From a virus, in the IMG/VR virus record IMGVR_UViG_3300033144_004200, positions 1 to 37,085 of that record: a DNA stretch of 37,085 nucleotides. One strand, 5' to 3'. The stretch's first letter is position 1. Every line of letters begins with the position of its first letter. The position numbers were made by a program, and so were the translations under genes. This document shows positions 7,088 to 31,764 of the stretch, in pieces. Below the pieces are notes generated by a model, which worked only from the letters and a program-made list of their open reading frames with translations, was not told where the DNA came from and ran no database searches.

Positions 7088-8409
7088 ACCGCGCCCCATT
7101 CTCGGAGTTTCGTTCCAGCGAGTTCCGAGATCGCCCAGACGAGGGCGTCGAGACGGTTCGGTGACCAGTCCGACTCGTCCGGTTCCCACGTGACCATCTC
7201 CGACTCTAGGGCCGGGAAGACTCCGATGTGGTGGACACGGTGCTGCTCGTAGAGGGCGAAGATCGGTTCCGCTCGTATCCGTTTCCCTCGCGAGGCGTGA
7301 ACCATCTTGTACGAGACGGAAGGATCGACGTTCCGGATTATTGCTTCGACCATGTCGCCCCCATAGTTAGCCTCACCGACGATCCGGTCGCCTCCGATCT
7401 CGTCGAGGAGCGCGACCGCTCGGGCGCCCCAGCCTTCCGGAGACAGTTTCCCCGAGGCGTCTGCGAGGACGGCGTAGTGAGGCATCCTCTTCGCTCCGCA
7501 CTTGCAGTTAGGTATCTCGGCGACGGCGACGATCCCAGCTTCGGTAGCTCCGCCAGGCGGATCGACGGCGACGATCGACCGTCCTCTCCGCTTCCGTTTC
7601 ATCTTCGAGAGGCGGTCCGTCTCGATCGAAGCGAACGTCCAGATCGCGCCTTCGGCTTCCTCGATCAGTTTCCCGAACAGTTCCTGTTCCCCGATCGACG
7701 TTCCTTCGTAGAGATCGAAGAGGCGCTGCTTCTGCTTCTCGTTCAGGTTCGGGTTGTCGAGCGTCGTCGCGGACGTAACGTGGTCCGCCTGCTTCCTCAC
7801 TTCGACGTACACCGGCCGAGCCTTCGGAGTCGTCGTCGCAATGATCCGAGGCGACGGTCCGAGACGGAGGCCGAACATCATGTCCGCCCACGCCTCGGCG
7901 AGGTAGCGCCACGACGCCAGTTCCTCCGCCCAGACGAGGCAGCGGTTACCACCAGCGCGGAGACGGTTGACGTCCTCCTTCGAGTGGGTGCCGAAGAGAC
8001 GGACCTGCGATCCGTTCTCGAACTTGACCATCGAACCTCCGGCCGACGATCGGAACACGGAACCGGGAGCGACCTTCGTCAAAGCCATATCCGACAAGGT
8101 CGCGGACTCGACGGCGTCTCCGATCGTCGGAGCGATAAGCGCCACACGATGCGGCGTCTTCCGAGAGATACACGCCGGACCTTCGACATGCTCCTTGACG
8201 TACTGTGCGGCGGTCGCGGACTTCCCAGCGCCTCGACCCATCTCTAGGAGCCAGAGGAACCAGTCGTCGTCGGGGATGATCTGGTGCGGCAGTGGTTCCC
8301 ACGGAGCCGGACGGTCCTCGTTCTGTAGATCGAGGAGGAGTTCGAGGCGTGCTTCGTCGAGGCCGGCCGGAGGGACGATCTGGATTCTCTCCGGCTGCGG
8401 AGCGGTCAT
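7084..8409 (-). CDS. terL: Large terminase subunit
   Basis: 441 residues. The packaging ATPase has Walker A GRGAGKS at 58-64, Walker B CLVWAEE at 157-163 and the coupling motif ATTTPK at 191-196. The nuclease domain starts with IVAVDPPGG around Asp283, continues with VGEANYGGDMVE and ends in a DALVWA segment. The start at 8409 overlaps the small terminase stop by ATGA; the longer open frame upstream lies within the small terminase gene. With the small subunit and portal it packages DNA. The position of the window ends inside a structural gene fits circularly permuted packaging, but the packaging type cannot be proved here. Confidence 0.95.
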   Translation of the reverse strand: MTAPQPERIQIVPPAGLDEARLELLLDLQNEDRPAPWEPLPHQIIPDDDWFLWLLEMGRGAGKSATAAQYVKEHVEGPACISRKTPHRVALIAPTIGDAVESATLSDMALTKVAPGSVFRSSAGGSMVKFENGSQVRLFGTHSKEDVNRLRAGGNRCLVWAEELASWRYLAEAWADMMFGLRLGPSPRIIATTTPKARPVYVEVRKQADHVTSATTLDNPNLNEKQKQRLFDLYEGTSIGEQELFGKLIEEAEGAIWTFASIETDRLSKMKRKRRGRSIVAVDPPGGATEAGIVAVAEIPNCKCGAKRMPHYAVLADASGKLSPEGWGARAVALLDEIGGDRIVGEANYGGDMVEAIIRNVDPSVSYKMVHASRGKRIRAEPIFALYEQHRVHHIGVFPALESEMVTWEPDESDWSPNRLDALVWAISELAGTKLREWGAV

Positions 8410-8762
8410 CCTTCCAACTCTCGTTCGGCTTGGAGCTTCGCGATCTCCTCTTCGACCCTCTCCGGTGTGAGTATCTCGACCATCGCAGGAGCCTTGAAGC
8501 CGTTCCGGTCGAGGATCGAGTCGACCGCTCGCATACGGACATTCCACGGGACGTCGTCGTTACCGAGCGCGCCACGAAGCTCGACGAGCGCCGGACCGAC
8601 CATCTGCTTCATAACCTCTCGGGCGTTCGCCTTCCGAACCTGCGGCGCGTTGCCTCCGTGGATACGACAGACGGTGCCGCCCTTGTTCGGAGGATTACCG
8701 CATCTCTTCCCCGTCGACTTCGCCGTCGCGGTACACGACACTCCGTCCTTACGTCTCGCCAT
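8406..8762 (-). CDS. terS: Small terminase subunit
   Basis: 118 residues. The N-terminus has CTATAKSTGKRCGNPP and VCRIHGG, a Cys/HGG zinc-binding-like signature common in actinophage small terminases. The rest is helical (VRKANAREVMKQMVGPALVELRG...). It probably recognises the packaging site and recruits the large subunit. ATG at 8762 has GGAGG upstream and overlaps the glycosyltransferase end by 14 nt, so the modification genes and packaging genes are on one transcript. Confidence 0.9.
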   Translation of the reverse strand: MARRKDGVSCTATAKSTGKRCGNPPNKGGTVCRIHGGNAPQVRKANAREVMKQMVGPALVELRGALGNDDVPWNVRMRAVDSILDRNGFKAPAMVEILTPERVEEEIAKLQAERELEG

Positions 8763-17883: not shown

Positions 17884-18068
17884 CGGAACGTCTCTGCCTG
17901 GAATATCCCACCGCCACGTTCCGGCTCGTCGGACTCGGCGGCGAGGTCTACACGATCTGGCGCTACGAGCAAACCCTCGAGCAGGCGGAGGAGTGGCTTC
18001 GTCGAGAACGTGCGGCGCACGCGACGCTGCACTTCGTCCTAGAGAGGAAGCGCGATGGCGATATCTAA
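17880..18068 (+). CDS. Small protein, 62 aa
   Basis: ATG at 17880 in an ATGA overlap. A beta-rich first half (ATFRLVGLGGEVYTIWRYE) is followed by an acidic helix (EQAEEWLRRERAAHATLHF). No family is recognised. The HNH gene starts in its last codons. Confidence 0.6.
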   Translation: MTERLCLEYPTATFRLVGLGGEVYTIWRYEQTLEQAEEWLRRERAAHATLHFVLERKRDGDI

Positions 18069-18348
18069 GGAACTCTACGAAGCCGTGATGGAGAGGGCCG
18101 GAGGTCGCTGCGAGATTCCGTGGTGCGTCTTTCCTCGACCTCGACTCGAAGTCGCTCACTTGAAAGGGAAGCAGGCCGGAGGATCGAAGTATCGGGACGT
18201 CCCCGAGAACCTGATCGTCCTCTGCCGGATACACCACGACATTCTCGACGGAGTCGTCGATCTAATGAAGGCGACGTACTCGATGCGAGGCGAGCGCGAG
18301 GAGTTCTATCGAGCGGCCGTCGATCGACCGTGGAAGGACCGACGATGA
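18055..18348 (+). CDS. HNH endonuclease
   Basis: 97 residues. Cys19 and Cys24 (CEIPWC), the first His at 35 (VAHLKGKQAGG), Asn52 (ENLIVLC) with Cys57, and His60-His61 (CRIHHD) form a complete HNH site with its zinc knuckle. It is a short free-standing HNH protein, in the middle of the early genes rather than next to the terminase, so a homing or recombination nuclease role is as likely as one in packaging. Confidence 0.88.
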   Translation: MAISKELYEAVMERAGGRCEIPWCVFPRPRLEVAHLKGKQAGGSKYRDVPENLIVLCRIHHDILDGVVDLMKATYSMRGEREEFYRAAVDRPWKDRR

Positions 18349-18861: not shown

Positions 18862-19043
18862 CAGAGATACGAGTTCAGATCGTGAGTATCCGGAAGACGA
18901 TGGAAGGAACGTCGGAGATGGAGATCGCCGTGACTAATGCCGGAGACTTGACCTTCGACGAGGCCAACCGTCTCCGTCGAGACGCTGTCGAGTTCCGGCT
19001 CGTTCCGGTCGACAGGATGCGCCGGTTCGGGGAGGAGCAATGA
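18858..19043 (+). CDS. Small protein, 61 aa
   Basis: ATG at 18858 in an ATGA overlap after GGAGGAACGA. Beta-rich first half (RVQIVSIRKTMEGTSEMEIAV), helix at 32-45. Ends EEQ from the next start element. Unknown role. Confidence 0.6.
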   Translation: MTEIRVQIVSIRKTMEGTSEMEIAVTNAGDLTFDEANRLRRDAVEFRLVPVDRMRRFGEEQ

Positions 19044-19831
19044 CGAGACGATCCGGTTCGGTTATCCCTCGAGGGATTCCGTTCGCTCAGATTCCGCATG
19101 CGCTGACGCTCGACGTCGAGGTCACGAACGCCGCATATCGGGTCTATGGACTCCTTATGAAGCTCGCGAACTCGGAGAGCCGAGCTTGGCCAGGCCACCG
19201 CTATCTCGAAGACAATCTCCCGATGACGAGGAAGACGATCGCCGGAGGAATCTCGAACCTCGAAGACTGCGGCTGGCTCGTCGTCGATCGGAGCCGTCAG
19301 GCGCATCGGTATACGATCGTCGTCGAGTTGGCTCGCCTCGACCTCGACTACACCAACCGGAGTAGAAACGACTCCGGAGGAGAAATTACTCCGGCGGAGT
19401 TTCGACCCCTGACTGGAGTAGAACTTACTCCGGAACCGGCGGAGAAACTACCCCGAACAGACAACCACGATAGACAACCAGTGAAAGACACTTCCGCTCC
19501 GAACGTCGCGTGGGAGTTCCTGACCGATCCGAACTCCTTCGCTATGACGGTCGCGACGGCGGCGCAGAGGAAGCGCGTCGGACGGATCGCTCGCGAGATC
19601 AACGCGAAACTCTACGCGCAGAACGTCCTCGACTCGATGCCGCATACCGGCTCCTTCGACGCCGAGCTTCGACGTCGAGCGTCGCTCTGGCCTACCCACT
19701 TCCCCGATGCCGTTATGACCGCCGAGGCGTTCGAGAAGCACTTCGAGCTTCTGGGCGCTCCTCCGCTCAAGCGGTCGAAGTCGGCGACGACGAGGTCGGC
19801 AGCGTCGGCGGCGATCGAGGCGCTCCGATGA
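19040..19831 (+). CDS. Replication initiator with internal iterons
   Basis: 263 residues. The N-terminal ~95 residues are a winged-helix domain: NAAYRVYGLLMKLANSESRAWPGHRYLEDNLPMTRKT is the initiator-type HTH, followed by SNLEDCGWLVVDRS and a wing ending at YTIVV. Residues 105-140 are a polar linker, and the last 110 residues are helical with a basic, Ala/Ser-rich end. The same design (HTH, linker with origin, partner-binding C-terminus) is that of lambda O-type initiators. Five iteron-like repeats lie in the DNA of the linker (19359-19455). The next gene may load the helicase. Start after GGAGGAGCAA in an ATGA overlap. Confidence 0.78.
   Translation: MTRRSGSVIPRGIPFAQIPHALTLDVEVTNAAYRVYGLLMKLANSESRAWPGHRYLEDNLPMTRKTIAGGISNLEDCGWLVVDRSRQAHRYTIVVELARLDLDYTNRSRNDSGGEITPAEFRPLTGVELTPEPAEKLPRTDNHDRQPVKDTSAPNVAWEFLTDPNSFAMTVATAAQRKRVGRIAREINAKLYAQNVLDSMPHTGSFDAELRRRASLWPTHFPDAVMTAEAFEKHFELLGAPPLKRSKSATTRSAASAAIEALR
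19359..19455 (+). repeat. Iteron array in initiator gene, candidate replication origin
   Basis: Five imperfect copies of GGAGTAGAAxxTACTCCGG start at 19359, 19379, 19396, 19415 and 19441. Copies 1 and 3 are 19 bp; copy 3 (GGAGTAGAACTTACTCCGG) is an inverted repeat of GGAGTA and TACTCC. Spacings of 20, 17, 19 and 26 are not multiples of three, so the repeat is kept at DNA level and not as a protein repeat. AT-rich sequence follows. This is the layout of a lambda-type origin in which the initiator gene carries its own binding sites. Confidence 0.7.
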
Positions 19832-20247
19832 CGACAACGAAGGAGTGGCAGGAGATCATGGAATGGATCGGCGCTCGGTTCCCCGAGAAGCCGTGGACGG
19901 CGGAGCAGGCGGTCGCATACTTCCACGACCTCGAAGACTTCGACGCCTCCGACGTCTGGACCGGACTCCTCGCGTTCTACGAGGAAGGACAACGGTTCGC
20001 TCCGAACGGATCGCAACTCCTACACGCAGCGAGGAAGGAACGGCGTCGAGGAGCGATCGACGATCTCTACCGGACGTCGGATCGTGCGCTTCCGGAACCG
20101 AAGGAGCCGGTGCCGGAGTGGGAGGAGATCACGAGGAAGAGGTTCGACGAAGTCCTGACGCCGACGCAGTACGTCGCTCGGATACACGCCGACTCGTCGA
20201 GATGCCGGAACTCGAATTGCGATATCCACAACGAGGTCGTCGTATGA
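19828..20247 (+). CDS. Candidate helicase loader
   Basis: 139 residues, ATG at 19828 in an ATGA overlap with the initiator. The layout WQEIMEWIGARFPEKPWTAEQ, AYFHDLEDFDASDVWTGLLAFY, GQRFAPNGSQLLHAARK resembles the SPP1 G39P type of phage helicase loader (short N-terminal helical domain with WT..Q and L.D motifs, then a disordered acidic tail). The C-terminus has CRNSNCDIHN, a possible zinc site. The role is supported by position after the initiator and by the absence of any phage helicase. Confidence in the family is moderate. Confidence 0.55.
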   Translation: MTTTKEWQEIMEWIGARFPEKPWTAEQAVAYFHDLEDFDASDVWTGLLAFYEEGQRFAPNGSQLLHAARKERRRGAIDDLYRTSDRALPEPKEPVPEWEEITRKRFDEVLTPTQYVARIHADSSRCRNSNCDIHNEVVV

Positions 20248-21407
20248 AGGTCGGATCGTTGTTCGCCGGAGTAGGAGGCTTCGACCTCGCGGCGGAGGCC
20301 GCAGGAATGGAAGTCGAGTTCCAGGCAGAGAACGATCCGGCGGCGAGCCGAGTCCTCGAAGCGCATTGGCCGGACAAGAATCTAGGAGATATACATGGAA
20401 TCGAAACACCACCAGCCGTCGATGTTCTCGTCGGAGGCTTCCCTTGTACCGATTACTCGGTCGCAGGAACGAGGTCTGGGTTGGCTGGAGATTCTGGCGC
20501 GCTCTGGTGGGAGTTTCGACGCCTCATTGATGCGGGGCGTCCCGATTGGGTGGTCGGCGAGAATGTCGCTGGCATCCTCTCTAGCCGAGGCGGTCGAGAC
20601 TTCGCAACGATCGTCGACTCCCTTACCGAACATGGGTATGGCGTCGTCTGGGCTGTGCTGGACAGCCAGTGGAGTGGAGTGGCGCAACGACGCCGCCGTC
20701 TCTTCCTTGTGGGACATTCTGGAGGAATCCCCCGACCCGAGATACTTGCTCTCGGCGAAGGCATGCAGGGGCATCCTCGACCGAGCCGAGCGGCGAGGCC
20801 GTCGCCTTCCTCCCGGTTTGAAGACGGCGCTCCTGTCCCGTACCGAAAGGCTACGAAAGACGGATGGGATAAGGGCTTCGAGCGGTGGGAACTCGACGAC
20901 GTAACCGGCACTCTGAATACGCAAGGTGATACCGCCGGCACCGTCGTGACGACTTCAGAGGCGATCGCCGACGGAGAACTCGCGAGGAGTCTCGGAGCCG
21001 TCGGAGGAGGAAACGATATCGGAGCGAACAAGGGGACGATCATCTATCGCTTGGAGGCGTTCGGGAAATACCGGCCGGACGGAGTCTCGTCGACGGTCCA
21101 GTCTCGCGACTTCAAGTCGGCGACGGACCTCGTCGTCAACGCGAGGCAGGACCCGATAACGGTCGAGGACGGATCGCCGCCGCTCGACGCCGGACGTCCG
21201 CAGCACGCCGTACTGCTCGAGGGAGCCGAGACGGTCCGGAGACTTACGCCGCTCGAATGTGAGCGGCTACAGGGATTCCCCGACGACTGGACGAAGATTC
21301 CAGGCAACACGGATTCGATGCGATACCGACAGATGGGTAACGCCGTGACGGTTCCGGTCGTCCGATGGATCATGGAACGGATAGCGAAGGAGGCCACCAA
21401 TGCCTGA
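20244..21407 (+). CDS. dcm: C5-cytosine DNA methyltransferase
   Basis: 387 residues with motif I (LFAGVGGFDLA, 6-16), catalytic Cys68 in GGFPCTDYS, ENV at 106-108, QRRRR at 148-152, then a target-recognition region of about 180 residues, LECERLQGFPDDW and QMGNAVTVPV near the end. No cognate nuclease gene is seen, so it probably protects phage DNA. Codon use between about 20395 and 20900 differs from the rest (more GCT, GGT, AGC, CTG and GTG); this is exactly the stretch that overlaps a second gene in the +1 frame. ATG 20244 is in an ATGA overlap. Confidence 0.93.
   Translation: MKVGSLFAGVGGFDLAAEAAGMEVEFQAENDPAASRVLEAHWPDKNLGDIHGIETPPAVDVLVGGFPCTDYSVAGTRSGLAGDSGALWWEFRRLIDAGRPDWVVGENVAGILSSRGGRDFATIVDSLTEHGYGVVWAVLDSQWSGVAQRRRRLFLVGHSGGIPRPEILALGEGMQGHPRPSRAARPSPSSRFEDGAPVPYRKATKDGWDKGFERWELDDVTGTLNTQGDTAGTVVTTSEAIADGELARSLGAVGGGNDIGANKGTIIYRLEAFGKYRPDGVSSTVQSRDFKSATDLVVNARQDPITVEDGSPPLDAGRPQHAVLLEGAETVRRLTPLECERLQGFPDDWTKIPGNTDSMRYRQMGNAVTVPVVRWIMERIAKEATNA
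20395..20904 (+). CDS. Embedded overlapping gene within methyltransferase
   Basis: 169 residues in the +1 frame of the methyltransferase, covering its residues 51-220. ATG 20395 has AGGAG at 20384-20388 with a 6-nt spacer, better than many real genes here. Unlike the shadow frames it is not Arg/Pro-biased throughout and it ends in a recognisable motif: DPRYLLSAKACRGILDRAE followed by RRGRRLPPGLKTAL (about 115-145), preceded by EWRNDAAVSSLWDILE. From memory, RYFLSxKACxGILRRAExRGKxLPxxLxxAL is the C-terminus of a widespread phage family encoded at DNA methyltransferase genes. The overlap explains the local codon anomaly. Function of the family is unknown. Confidence 0.75.
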   Translation: MESKHHQPSMFSSEASLVPITRSQERGLGWLEILARSGGSFDASLMRGVPIGWSARMSLASSLAEAVETSQRSSTPLPNMGMASSGLCWTASGVEWRNDAAVSSLWDILEESPDPRYLLSAKACRGILDRAERRGRRLPPGLKTALLSRTERLRKTDGIRASSGGNSTT

Positions 21408-22766: not shown

Positions 22767-23720
22767 TTATTGCGCCAGAAGTAGCGCCGTCCAAGTCATC
22801 GGACCGACCGAGCCGTCGTCGTCGAGGCCGACCGATATTTGGAATCCTTCGACCGCTGCTTCGGTTCCTCGACCGTATTTCCCGTCGACAGGGATCGCTC
22901 CGTCGTCCTCCGACTTCTCGTCGATGAAGCCTCGGATCGTGAGGAGCGACTGTGCGTTCTCGACGTAGAACCCGAGCGCCTTATCGCCGCCGGAACCGGC
23001 CGGAGTCGTGTTGTAATATCCGTCGCCGTACTCGATGGTCGGTGGCATTTCCATAGTGTCGATCTCCTGTGGTGGTATCGGTTGCGCTGGTCCTCCGTTG
23101 AGTATCGCTTGCGCCTCGGTTCGGATCGCAGGCATCCGGTTGCCTGGCCCTTCCCAGCGTGGGTCGATCTTCGTCGCTCGCCATTCGAGGTGGCCGATCG
23201 TCTGTTCGATCGACTGGCCGAGGACTTCCGACATGGCGGCAGTGAGAGTCGCGATCGCGAGTTCCTGTACGTCGGGCATCGAGGAGCCGTCGCCGGGGTG
23301 TTCGGCTTCCATGTTCCAGAAGTAGCGATTGCCGCAGATAGAGATGTCAGTTATGCCTCGTTCGCGTGCGGTTCCGCCTGGCCAAGTATCGGTGCGGACC
23401 TCTTCGAGCGTCTTCCTCGATCCGTAGCAGGAAGCGTAGGTCGCTGCTCCGGAGGCGATGAGATGTAGCGTTCCGCTCCGGTCGGCGAACCAGTTACAGA
23501 TGATGCGGTTATCTGTTCGGAGTCCTCCGTCCGTCTTCGGGTAGCAGTGTCCTGCTCTTACGTTCCCGGCGGCTGCGGCGGAACCTCCCCAATGGTGGAG
23601 CATGCCTCCGTAAATGCCGCGAGCGAAGTCCGCTCCTCGCGTCCAAGCTCCGTCCTCGACGACGACGTCGACTCCTCTCGAACGAAGGAGCTGCACAACA
23701 GTGTTCGGTATCCGGTTCAT
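22767..23720 (-). CDS. Endolysin: zinc amidase with peptidoglycan-binding domain
   Basis: 317 residues. MLHHWGG (His42-His43) begins the Amidase_2-like site; NMEAEHPGD and HLEWRATKIDPRW supply further zinc and catalytic residues, so the enzyme should be an N-acetylmuramoyl-L-alanine amidase. Residues 245-317 form a PG_binding_1-type domain (AQSLLTIRGFID, DGKYGRGTEAAVEGFQ, DDDGSVGPMTWTALL). There is no signal peptide, so release depends on a holin. ATG 23720 overlaps the previous stop as ATGA. Confidence 0.92.
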   Translation of the reverse strand: MNRIPNTVVQLLRSRGVDVVVEDGAWTRGADFARGIYGGMLHHWGGSAAAAGNVRAGHCYPKTDGGLRTDNRIICNWFADRSGTLHLIASGAATYASCYGSRKTLEEVRTDTWPGGTARERGITDISICGNRYFWNMEAEHPGDGSSMPDVQELAIATLTAAMSEVLGQSIEQTIGHLEWRATKIDPRWEGPGNRMPAIRTEAQAILNGGPAQPIPPQEIDTMEMPPTIEYGDGYYNTTPAGSGGDKALGFYVENAQSLLTIRGFIDEKSEDDGAIPVDGKYGRGTEAAVEGFQISVGLDDDGSVGPMTWTALLLAQ

Positions 23721-24046
23721 TCTCTCACCCTTCGATCGCTTCCGTCCCACATGAAATGGCGTTGGATATCGTCGACGACTCCGCCGATCCTCGCGACCTC
23801 CGACGTCAGTCCGTTCTCTAATTTCGACTCGATCTCGCGGACACGAATAAGCTCGCCGTTCATCGTGATGAGCTGTAGCTGTATCGGTTGCATCGCCCTG
23901 TCGATCGACTCGCGGACGACGTCGGCGACCGTCCGATGGATGTACTGTTTACCGAGACTCAAAGCCGCTCCTGTCCATACGCTCAGGAAGACGGTGACCG
24001 CGGCGATCGTCGTCGCCCAACCTGCGATCGTAGAAGGCGCATCCAC
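23717..24046 (-). CDS. Holin-like membrane protein, 109 aa
   Basis: GTG at 24046 overlaps the GNAT stop by one base (TAGTG). Residues 5-30 are a membrane helix (STIAGWATTIAAVTVFLSVW) followed by a long charged helical tail (ESIDRAMQPIQLQLITMNGELIR...), a layout of holin-like or spanin-like actinophage proteins. Location immediately before the endolysin supports a lysis role. Which of the two membrane proteins is the true holin is open. Confidence 0.65.
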   Translation of the reverse strand: MDAPSTIAGWATTIAAVTVFLSVWTGAALSLGKQYIHRTVADVVRESIDRAMQPIQLQLITMNGELIRVREIESKLENGLTSEVARIGGVVDDIQRHFMWDGSDRRVRE

Positions 24047-29316: not shown

Positions 29317-31764
29317 TCACCTCACCGTCGTCGAGCCGAGGAACTCGACCTCTTCGGTTATACCTGCCATGAGGAGTCCGGTCTGGACCGCCTGCGATAA
29401 GTCGATCGACTCGGCGATCTCGTTCCCCGTGATCGTCACTTGGACGGTTCGGCCACCAGCGTTCGAGCCGAGTTGGTCGTTCGGAATGATCCGGCCGGAC
29501 GCGTTCGGCGTGAATATCTCCGGTCCTTGCTCGCCGACGAGGAACGATCCTCCGGCACTGACCGGCCCTCCGTGAGCTCGGGCACCGCCGGGACCTCGAT
29601 CGAAGTCGTCGAACTGGTTCCGGTGCGTGACCGTGACGGTCGAGTTGACGTCCGTTCCGTCGAGGAGTCCGAGAGTTTCGAGGAGGTCGCGTGCTTCGTC
29701 GTCGGACAGTCCGAGTGCGTCTTGGAGAATCTGCATCGCACCGTTGACCGAGTTCGCGTCGACGCCGTCGAGCGCCCCTTGCGCCTCGAATATCGCGACG
29801 GCGAAGTCGAGTTGCGCCTGCGCTACGTCCTCCGTCGTCGCCTTCGTATCGGCGAGGACGTCGTTGAGGGATTCCTCCGCCGTCTGCATCTTCTCGACAG
29901 CGTTGATCGCTTTCAGTGACGGAGACGAGAGTTCGAGGATCGCGTTGGCCAGGCCGTTGACTTCCGCCATCGCTGCGGCGACCGCTTCTCCGTACTCCGT
30001 GAACACCGGACCGGAGTCCTCGATGACGGACGAAGCATCTGCCGCCTGTTGCGCGAGCCACCGTTCCGAAGCGCCGAGGAGACGAGTGACTTCGTTCGCC
30101 TGCTCGACCTCCGCTGCGTTCTCGTTGACGGCTTCGGTGTAGAACCCGAACGCCACCATGAGATGTTGCATCTCCGCCTCGGTGATGCCGAGTCCTTCGG
30201 CGACGTCCGAGACCCTCTGGAGTGCGATTCCCATCTCGATATCGGTGGCGTGGAAGGCGTCTTGGAGTCCGTTCATTTGCGCCGCCGTGATACCTCCTTC
30301 CATGCCGAGAGTTCCGATGGCCGTGGCCAGAGCATGTGCGTCGTCTCGGAGGAATCCGCTATCGAGTCCGGAGCGGACCTCGGACATTACCTTCGAGAGC
30401 ATGTTCATATCTCGATCGAAGTCGTTGATAAAGTCGTTGATGTTGATATTTGGACCGAGCATCGTATCGAAGATGTTGTTGAAGGCGTCGACTCCGGAAG
30501 CGAACCCGAACATTCCTTGCTTGAAGACTTCGGGCGCTTCGGTAGCGAACTTGATTACCTCCGTCGCCGCCGGAACAGCGGACGAGGCGAGGTCGATGAA
30601 AGCGATCGTCAAGTCGCCGATCGCAGTAACGAGATCGGGGATGAGCGGACCGACCTCTTCGAGCGCAGCGGCGATATCGGGCATGATCTGTTCACCGATT
30701 CCGAGGAGTGCGTTCTCGATATCGACCTTCGCCTGCTTGAACGCGAACGCCGACGTCGCGGCGGCTACGTCGAAGGCGTCTCCGGCGGTGCCTGCGGATG
30801 CCGCGACTTCGTCGAAGATATCGCGAGTGTCTTCGAGGTTCGATCCCATAAGCGACAGCACTCCGGTAAGCGCTCGGACGTTCCCGAAGACTCTCGTCGT
30901 GGCGTCTGCCTGGCCATCGAAGGCGGTGTTGATCTGAACCAATCCCTCGAGCAGTCCTCCCGGTCCGGCCATCGTCGCTCGGATACCTCCGGCGGAGAGG
31001 CCGACCTCTTCGAGTGCGCGTGCGGCGTCCGTCGTCGGATTGAGGAGCGACGTCATTATCGAACGGAGCGCGGTCGTTGCTTCGTTGGCGTCGAGGCCGA
31101 CTCTCGTCATGGCGGCGATCGCCGCACCGACTTGGTCGAAACCGATCCCCATTTGAGAAGCGATCGGAATGACTCGACCCATCGCCGACGCGAGTTCCGG
31201 TGCGGCTGCTTTACCTTCTCGGACCGTAGCGACGAGGACGTCGGTCGCTTCGGCGGAGGAGATCACTTCGGAGCCGTAAGCGTTCACGGCGGAAGTGAGG
31301 AGGTCGGCGATCGTTACGACGTCTCCGAGGCCGGCGGCGGATGCTTTCGCCGACGATTCGAGAGTGTCGAGCGCTTCCTGTCCTTCGAGTCCGGCGGAGG
31401 TTATGAAGAACAGCGCCTCGGCGAGTTCCTGCGATCCGACCGCTGTCTCGTGGGCGATCTCCTTGACGTCGTCTCCGAACGCGACGACGGCTTCGTGTGA
31501 CACGCCGACGAGCCCTTCGATCCTCGACATCGTCTCCTCGAACTGCATGAACGCCTTCGCGCCTTTGATGCCGACGGCGGCCATCGCTACGCCGAGCGCG
31601 ACGACTCCTCCGACGACGGCAGCGGAACCGAGCTTCGCTGCCTTGTTCGCGAGTCCGCCGAGTGACTTATCGAACGACTTCGTCTCCGCCATCGCTTTCT
31701 TGAGGCCGGACGAATAGCGTCCCGTCTTCGCGACGATATTGACATTGATGTTCCGGCTAGTCAT
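29317..31764 (-). CDS. Tape measure protein
   Basis: 815 residues; ATG 31764 overlaps the chaperone stop. The N-terminus VAKTGRYSSGLKKAMAETKSFDKS with Ala/Gly-rich membrane-like segment (SAAVVGGVVALGVAMAAVG), then MQFEETMSRIEGLVGVS and ATTALRSIMTSLLNP, matches the TMP family. At about 1.5 angstrom per residue the tail should be near 120 nm long. The C-terminal 120 residues are Gly-rich (RGPGGARAHGGPVSAGGSFLV). Helices dominate otherwise. The gene is transcribed with its chaperones. Confidence 0.95.
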   Translation of the reverse strand: MTSRNINVNIVAKTGRYSSGLKKAMAETKSFDKSLGGLANKAAKLGSAAVVGGVVALGVAMAAVGIKGAKAFMQFEETMSRIEGLVGVSHEAVVAFGDDVKEIAHETAVGSQELAEALFFITSAGLEGQEALDTLESSAKASAAGLGDVVTIADLLTSAVNAYGSEVISSAEATDVLVATVREGKAAAPELASAMGRVIPIASQMGIGFDQVGAAIAAMTRVGLDANEATTALRSIMTSLLNPTTDAARALEEVGLSAGGIRATMAGPGGLLEGLVQINTAFDGQADATTRVFGNVRALTGVLSLMGSNLEDTRDIFDEVAASAGTAGDAFDVAAATSAFAFKQAKVDIENALLGIGEQIMPDIAAALEEVGPLIPDLVTAIGDLTIAFIDLASSAVPAATEVIKFATEAPEVFKQGMFGFASGVDAFNNIFDTMLGPNININDFINDFDRDMNMLSKVMSEVRSGLDSGFLRDDAHALATAIGTLGMEGGITAAQMNGLQDAFHATDIEMGIALQRVSDVAEGLGITEAEMQHLMVAFGFYTEAVNENAAEVEQANEVTRLLGASERWLAQQAADASSVIEDSGPVFTEYGEAVAAAMAEVNGLANAILELSSPSLKAINAVEKMQTAEESLNDVLADTKATTEDVAQAQLDFAVAIFEAQGALDGVDANSVNGAMQILQDALGLSDDEARDLLETLGLLDGTDVNSTVTVTHRNQFDDFDRGPGGARAHGGPVSAGGSFLVGEQGPEIFTPNASGRIIPNDQLGSNAGGRTVQVTITGNEIAESIDLSQAVQTGLLMAGITEEVEFLGSTTVR

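Follow-up and report, generated by a model that had tools for sequence, protein, structure and literature searches.

The window analysed here is the whole of a 37,085-nucleotide stretch of viral DNA (IMG/VR record IMGVR_UViG_3300033144_004200). It encodes a C5-cytosine DNA methyltransferase (Dcm) that is similar to M.HhaI, and the whole of a second ORF is contained within this gene, in its +1 frame. An HNH endonuclease-like ORF (18055–18348) and a replication-initiation-like protein (19040–19831) are encoded upstream of the methyltransferase; elsewhere in the window there are genes for an endolysin (22767–23750, minus strand) and a tape measure protein (29317–31764, minus strand). The features of the methyltransferase locus are as follows.

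20244–21407, plus strand: Dcm host gene, a C5-cytosine DNA methyltransferase of 387 amino acids, frame 0; PF00145 E=2.5e-64, TIGR00675 E=1.3e-62
20384–20388, plus strand: AGGAG, Shine-Dalgarno-like, separated by a 6-nt spacer from the embedded ATG; found in the sequence
20395–20904, plus strand: embedded gene, 169 amino acids and a TAA stop, ATG start, +1 frame of Dcm; homologues and synonymous constraint
20395–20700, plus strand: N-terminal part of the embedded protein, overprinted on Dcm motifs IV–VIII; predicted disordered, weak constraint
20685–20699, plus strand: Dcm motif VIII (QRRRR), frame 0, directly 5' of the putatively displaced core; found in the sequence
20704–20781, plus strand: conserved core of the embedded protein, SLWDILEESPDPRYLLSAKACRGILD; invariant columns, PSSM matches in ordinary Dcms after motif VIII
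20707–20883, plus strand: C-terminal basic helical domain with three helices predicted by AlphaFold; pI 10.8
20754–20903, plus strand: Dcm frame-0 linker above the embedded C-terminal domain, poorly conserved; the +1 frame is better conserved across most of it

A preliminary description of this stretch had proposed the 169-codon frame, its AGGAG, its 6-nt spacer and its ATG, all of which are present in the sequence; an open frame with a start and a ribosome-binding site thus lies within another gene. The overlap covers Dcm codons 51–220 and, as had been claimed, includes the catalytic region – PC (Cys68), ENV (106–108) and QRRRR (148–152). The embedded frame had also been said to coincide with the only part of the methyltransferase with unusual codon choice. 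The mean log-odds of Dcm-frame codons does drop inside the overlap (−0.30 to +0.2, versus ca. 0.3–0.44 in most of the remaining gene), but "only" was slightly too strong, as values are also low near 21234–21353.

Homologues of the embedded protein are abundant and are each nested in a Dcm gene in +1, and the C-terminal motif that the first reading had ascribed to a widespread phage family at methyltransferase loci is real. A tblastn search with the embedded protein as query found 129 phage records, and a consensus query found 160. There are 531 plasmid records with the embedded protein, mostly P1-like, and matching stretches number at least 600 in IMG/VR and at least 590 in GTDB contigs. In all of the ca. 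435 loci with a detected embedded domain, which come from phages, prophages and phage-plasmids of several phyla, the domain lies in the +1 frame of a Dcm gene. This was the case for 80 of 80 loci fetched with the embedded profile (classified by script, best 80), for 80 of 80 contigs from bacterial genomes (best 80), likewise for P1 and MM1, and for 181 of 181 loci in three more scans with Streptococcus MM1, P7 and marine queries. When loci were fetched with the Dcm protein alone, 78 of the best 80 had the embedded domain in +1; the two that seemed to lack it (L137 and L138) have an open +1 frame and proved on reading to be divergent members. No standalone copy of the embedded gene was found among the ca. 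435 loci (best 80 per query, so that rare ones could be missed). A few prophage copies (G041, G050, G051 and G057) have one in-frame TAG or TGA within the match.

The embedded gene belongs to a particular, phage-linked class of Dcm, since only 3 of 150 sampled genomes from the phylum of G042 (Novosphingobium, Pseudomonadota), the seed genome included, carry it. Ordinary chromosomal Dcms, that of E. coli among them, have no homologous protein in the +1 frame. The P1 version of the embedded ORF is found in 493 of 5426 complete E. coli genomes.

An open frame by itself is weak evidence, and this one is only mildly surprising: when the window Dcm gene is shuffled synonymously, the +1 frame remains open in 1% of cases, and the median probability of an open frame is 0.007 across 108 non-redundant loci. 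In some ordinary GC-rich Dcms the +1 frame has open runs of 200–390 codons, so that the long ORF might be a chance outcome of GC-rich composition, but those runs have no homology to the embedded protein, and chance is excluded for practical purposes by conservation – the low probability of an open frame across loci, the synonymous constraint that matches the ORF bounds and the phase flip described below.

Synonymous constraint was measured in a codon alignment of 109 non-redundant Dcms (ca. 5,700 pairs), with synonymous-site identity scaled to the mean of each pair. The ratio of observed to expected synonymous identity in Dcm is ca. 0.6–0.75 outside the overlap versus 0.9–1.8 inside it. The constraint rises at 20379–20408 and falls at 20874–20918, which are the bounds of the embedded ORF. 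The N-terminal part (20395–20700) has ratios of ca. 0.9–1.4 versus ca. 0.7 outside. Further downstream, between 20754 and 20828, amino acid identity is 0.73 in the +1 protein versus 0.40 in the Dcm frame, and over 20739–20888 variation is no longer greatest at the third codon position of Dcm but at the first, where the +1 frame has its wobble base.

The same pattern of selection is repeated in two independent lineages, represented by 59 MM1-type and 71 P1-type sequences. In the P1 family, dNN/dNS is 0.10 for the C-terminal half of the embedded protein, compared to 0.81 and 1.24 in the flanks that encode only Dcm, and 0.69 for the weakly constrained N-terminal half (ca. 100 residues); because sequence pairs are not independent, these ratios are effect sizes rather than tests, and the main support is the agreement of three lineages. 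The second frame is therefore repeatedly found to be under purifying selection, within limits that coincide with those of the ORF. The outcome named beforehand as fatal to the proposal – no homologues as a protein, with the +1 frame broken by stops at homologous loci – is clearly not what was found.

Synonymous constraint alone would fit a DNA or RNA element within Dcm, with no protein, as well as it fits a gene. Such an element is very improbable here: RNA structure is unfit as a cause because the variable codon position flips to the +1 wobble position, amino acid identity in +1 exceeds that in frame 0, in P1 the +1 dN/dS lies far below 1, and the frame is open in AT-richer and GC-rich genomes alike. 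The embedded gene is under selection at the protein level and is obligately nested in Dcm; judged by all of these comparisons, it is almost certainly real.

The start of the embedded gene is marked in an aquatic phage clade, in which a Dcm motif, K-E-W, lies just 5' of the embedded start (ATG or TTG). The codons for this motif read AAGGAG in 30 of 33 loci of the clade, versus 21% expected from codon use in the same genes, and the neighbouring lysine of the same Dcm motif is encoded by AAA in 22 of 25. By this measure the AAGGAG is a putative Shine-Dalgarno sequence kept beyond the needs of Dcm. Its counterpart in the window is the AGGAG–6 nt–ATG arrangement, and the N-terminal motif past the start can be recognised in the window as well, with PSMFSSEAS corresponding to MSMFSSEE in many relatives. 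Since AAGGAG is kept far beyond Dcm codon needs, although in one clade, the embedded gene very probably has its own initiation.

Alternatively, the core might be made mainly by programmed ribosomal frameshifting after motif VIII, which would fuse it to the N-terminal half of Dcm. Constraint is indeed greatest past motif VIII and weak before it, and a few loci (L245 and L012) have the C-terminal half of Dcm in the embedded frame. This route is nevertheless improbable, as constraint begins at the embedded start rather than at motif VIII, the Shine-Dalgarno sequence is kept at synonymous sites, and the N-terminal motif near the embedded start is conserved.

In L245, L233 and L012 (Mycobacterium phage Lucky2013 gp113/gp114) this half of Dcm is in the embedded frame, so that Dcm is split, and for L245 and L233 the embedded protein runs on without a break into the half that has the target-recognition domain (TRD) and motifs IX–X. 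These may be cases of frameshift decay or of a split enzyme. A reading of the embedded protein as a split or fused "beta subunit", based on L245, L233 and Lucky2013, was considered and rejected: the frame is other than standard in only 6 of 290 loci, and most of these look like sporadic frameshifts or errors. In the standard arrangement, the TRD and motifs IX–X that would define such a subunit are in Dcm frame 0.

AlphaFold predicts that the N-terminal 100 residues of the embedded protein are disordered (pLDDT ca. 45–58), followed by helices at residues 105–111, 121–134 and 140–163, with pLDDT above 90 in the core. Searches with Foldseek using the predicted domain, and sequence and profile searches of the PDB using the domain or the core, gave nothing significant. 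Pfam and NCBIfam searches with the embedded protein had no match over cut-off, including none to a described anti-restriction or anti-defence family, and there was no PF00145 match within it.

A significant match was obtained to PHROG 16143, a family built on such proteins and named "DNA methyltransferase". Its profile matches the window protein (E=1.4e-6, residues 54–123), L012 (5.1e-11) and orf14 of Streptococcus phage MM1 1998 (DQ113772; 5.3e-82). The last is a homologue, annotated as "C5 methyltransferase beta subunit" and the sole annotated case among the records examined; orf14 (7631–8056) lies inside orf13 (7480–8637), in the +1 frame. Another family, phrog_1008, was tried as a source of standalone relatives and rejected, as its best case, L263, is another +1 overlap in a different class of Dcm. 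This locus (G017:C1, a 40813-base IMG/VR contig; 1354–2208 and 1242–2243) encodes a FFAGIGVWSLALREAGW-type Dcm with another long +1-overlapping protein, which is matched (E=2.8e-17) by phrog_1008, a family that likewise goes by the name "DNA methyltransferase". More than one Dcm class may thus contain hidden +1 genes.

In phage P1 (NC_005856), an unannotated ORF of 157 amino acids lies inside dmt at 66728–67201. The embedded ORF is not mentioned in the dmt annotations of P1 and P7, and among the matches listed in E. coli genomes there is a dmt-type feature only, with no separate feature for it. Many matches in E. coli relatives end at base 406 of 473, and variability jumps past the embedded core, which suggests recombination of the recognition domain just downstream. 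In a CRISPRi screen of P1, knock-down of dmt had no effect on plaquing and the gene was classed as non-essential, though the two frames are not separable in such a screen (PMC10695390).

The core of the embedded protein has a counterpart in ordinary Dcms. An ungapped 26-column matrix was made from 42 embedded cores and evaluated by column permutation, a procedure chosen since the full-profile HMM was weak. Core-like segments were found in frame soon after motif VIII in the Dcm of E. coli (TLAQLLDPMVEAKYILT / TLAQLLDPMVEAKYILTPVLWKYL) and in L534 (KLGSILEPHVDEKYTLT / KLGSILEPHVDEKYTLTPKLWKYL), with further in-frame segments in L519 (KLGHILDSNVDEKYTISDKLWAG) and L525 (VVKDILQTNVDKKFFCNKDFTNRL); the embedded cores for comparison are SLSDILEEEVDERYFLSAEMVQRLL in MM1 orf14 and SLWDILEESPDPRYLLSAKACRGIL in the window. 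Permutation p values were 5e-5 for E. coli Dcm, 5e-5 for L498 and 5e-4 for L494. In a sample from the Pseudomonadota, 6 of 30 ordinary Dcms had a match at p<0.01 versus 0.3 expected, mostly 22–54 residues past motif VIII, and in a second set 4 of 41 did so; the match extends over ca. 26 amino acids, most tested Dcms are without one and the full-profile HMM support is weak. The core therefore matches an in-frame segment after motif VIII beyond chance and in the same place, and is probably a displaced Dcm segment.

The proposed origin of the locus is a frame jump after motif VIII that would have shifted this segment of Dcm into the +1 frame. In ordinary C5-methyltransferases the core would lie in frame between motif VIII and the TRD, while in this class of phage enzymes it would be read in +1 and Dcm would read an overprinted linker in its place. 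The Dcm frame would be ancestral over the catalytic motifs and the +1 frame over the C-terminal domain, and the poor conservation of the Dcm frame exactly over that domain fits a +1 frame that is ancestral there. One mRNA read in two frames would then yield Dcm and, as its partner, a small basic protein that is disordered at the N-terminus and has a C-terminal domain that is compact, basic and helical. The partner may act on Dcm in trans, docking near the junction of the catalytic and recognition domains, and as a structural complement or a regulator it may provide or control the function that the segment performs in cis in other Dcms. Two observations make action on Dcm in trans seem the likeliest role, namely that the two genes are never found apart and that the core is like a piece of Dcm; a partner role is plausible on these grounds, with about an even chance of being correct. 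The rarity of fused or split forms (6 of 290 loci), which would favour a role as a subunit, counts against it.

The first reading had offered roles in anti-restriction or in regulation of the methyltransferase as speculation. The embedded gene might instead be real but have nothing to do with methylation – for example, an anti-defence or DNA-binding regulatory protein trapped inside Dcm. A basic helical C-terminal domain with a pI of 10.8 and a phage or prophage setting beside a modification gene would suit such a protein, and recombination cannot easily part overlapping genes. This is the strongest of the alternatives, but it is rather unlikely: there is no standalone copy in the ca. 435 loci (best 80 per query), the core resembles a Dcm segment, and Pfam and NCBIfam have no match to a known anti-defence protein. 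The explanation as a whole – an overlapping gene with its own start, encoding a displaced segment that would be a partner of Dcm in trans – is about equally likely to hold or to fail. A broader version is more tentative. In an ancient phage lineage, the methyltransferase may have become an enzyme of two proteins that are both encoded by the same DNA, with one segment displaced to +1 as the C-terminus of a protein started inside the catalytic domain and with both frames overprinted and functional, and the pair may then have spread in phages, prophages and phage-plasmids of several phyla, P1 included.

What is new here is the likeness of the core to the segment after motif VIII and the presence of the same hidden gene in phage P1. 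A conserved gene is hidden in one of the commonest phage gene families, including P1 and ca. 9% of complete E. coli genomes, and has been overlooked because gene finders give one frame per locus. Many studies, knock-outs and clones of phage methyltransferases have in effect handled two genes. If the core is a displaced segment, the locus would also be a natural case of mutual overprinting, in which each frame is ancestral over a different part, and one that could be tested in standard laboratory phages.

Several known systems resemble this locus in part. M.AquI is a split methyltransferase of two subunits, and like the phage locus it has two gene products at one methyltransferase locus. The subunits of M.AquI share out the conserved motifs, however, while the phage locus encodes a complete Dcm, with the gene for the second product nested within it in a different frame. 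Elements of the ShiLan type are mobile, out-of-frame HNH insertions in phage methylases (PMC11855218); they share with the embedded gene the placement of an out-of-frame protein within a phage methylase gene, but the embedded gene is not inserted and overlaps conserved catalytic motifs. A literature search, with most subscription journals outside it, found no description of the embedded gene, and that paper, on a different thing, was the nearest. Insertions resembling the ShiLan out-of-frame HNH elements (PMC11855218) occur in the Dcm genes of L169–L171 (4428–5085 in L169, for example), where the insertion is open in the Dcm frame, has a homing-endonuclease-like ORF in another frame and splits the embedded gene.

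The closest systems are the other members of the family. MM1 orf14 has the same nested +1 arrangement as the window gene; it does not fit its label as half of a methyltransferase, as no methyltransferase motif occurs in it and orf13 by itself encodes a complete Dcm. It and the streptococcal versions differ from the window protein in lacking the second half of the domain, GILRRAEKRGK-LP. The ORF in dmt of P1 and P7 has the same core in the +1 frame of the Dcm part, with strong purifying selection in the P1 family, but has another N-terminus (MQLT start) and lies within a bifunctional Dam/Dcm gene. Ordinary Dcms such as that of E. coli have no embedded ORF and carry the segment in frame within one polypeptide, yet they resemble the embedded core both in sequence pattern and in its position soon after motif VIII.
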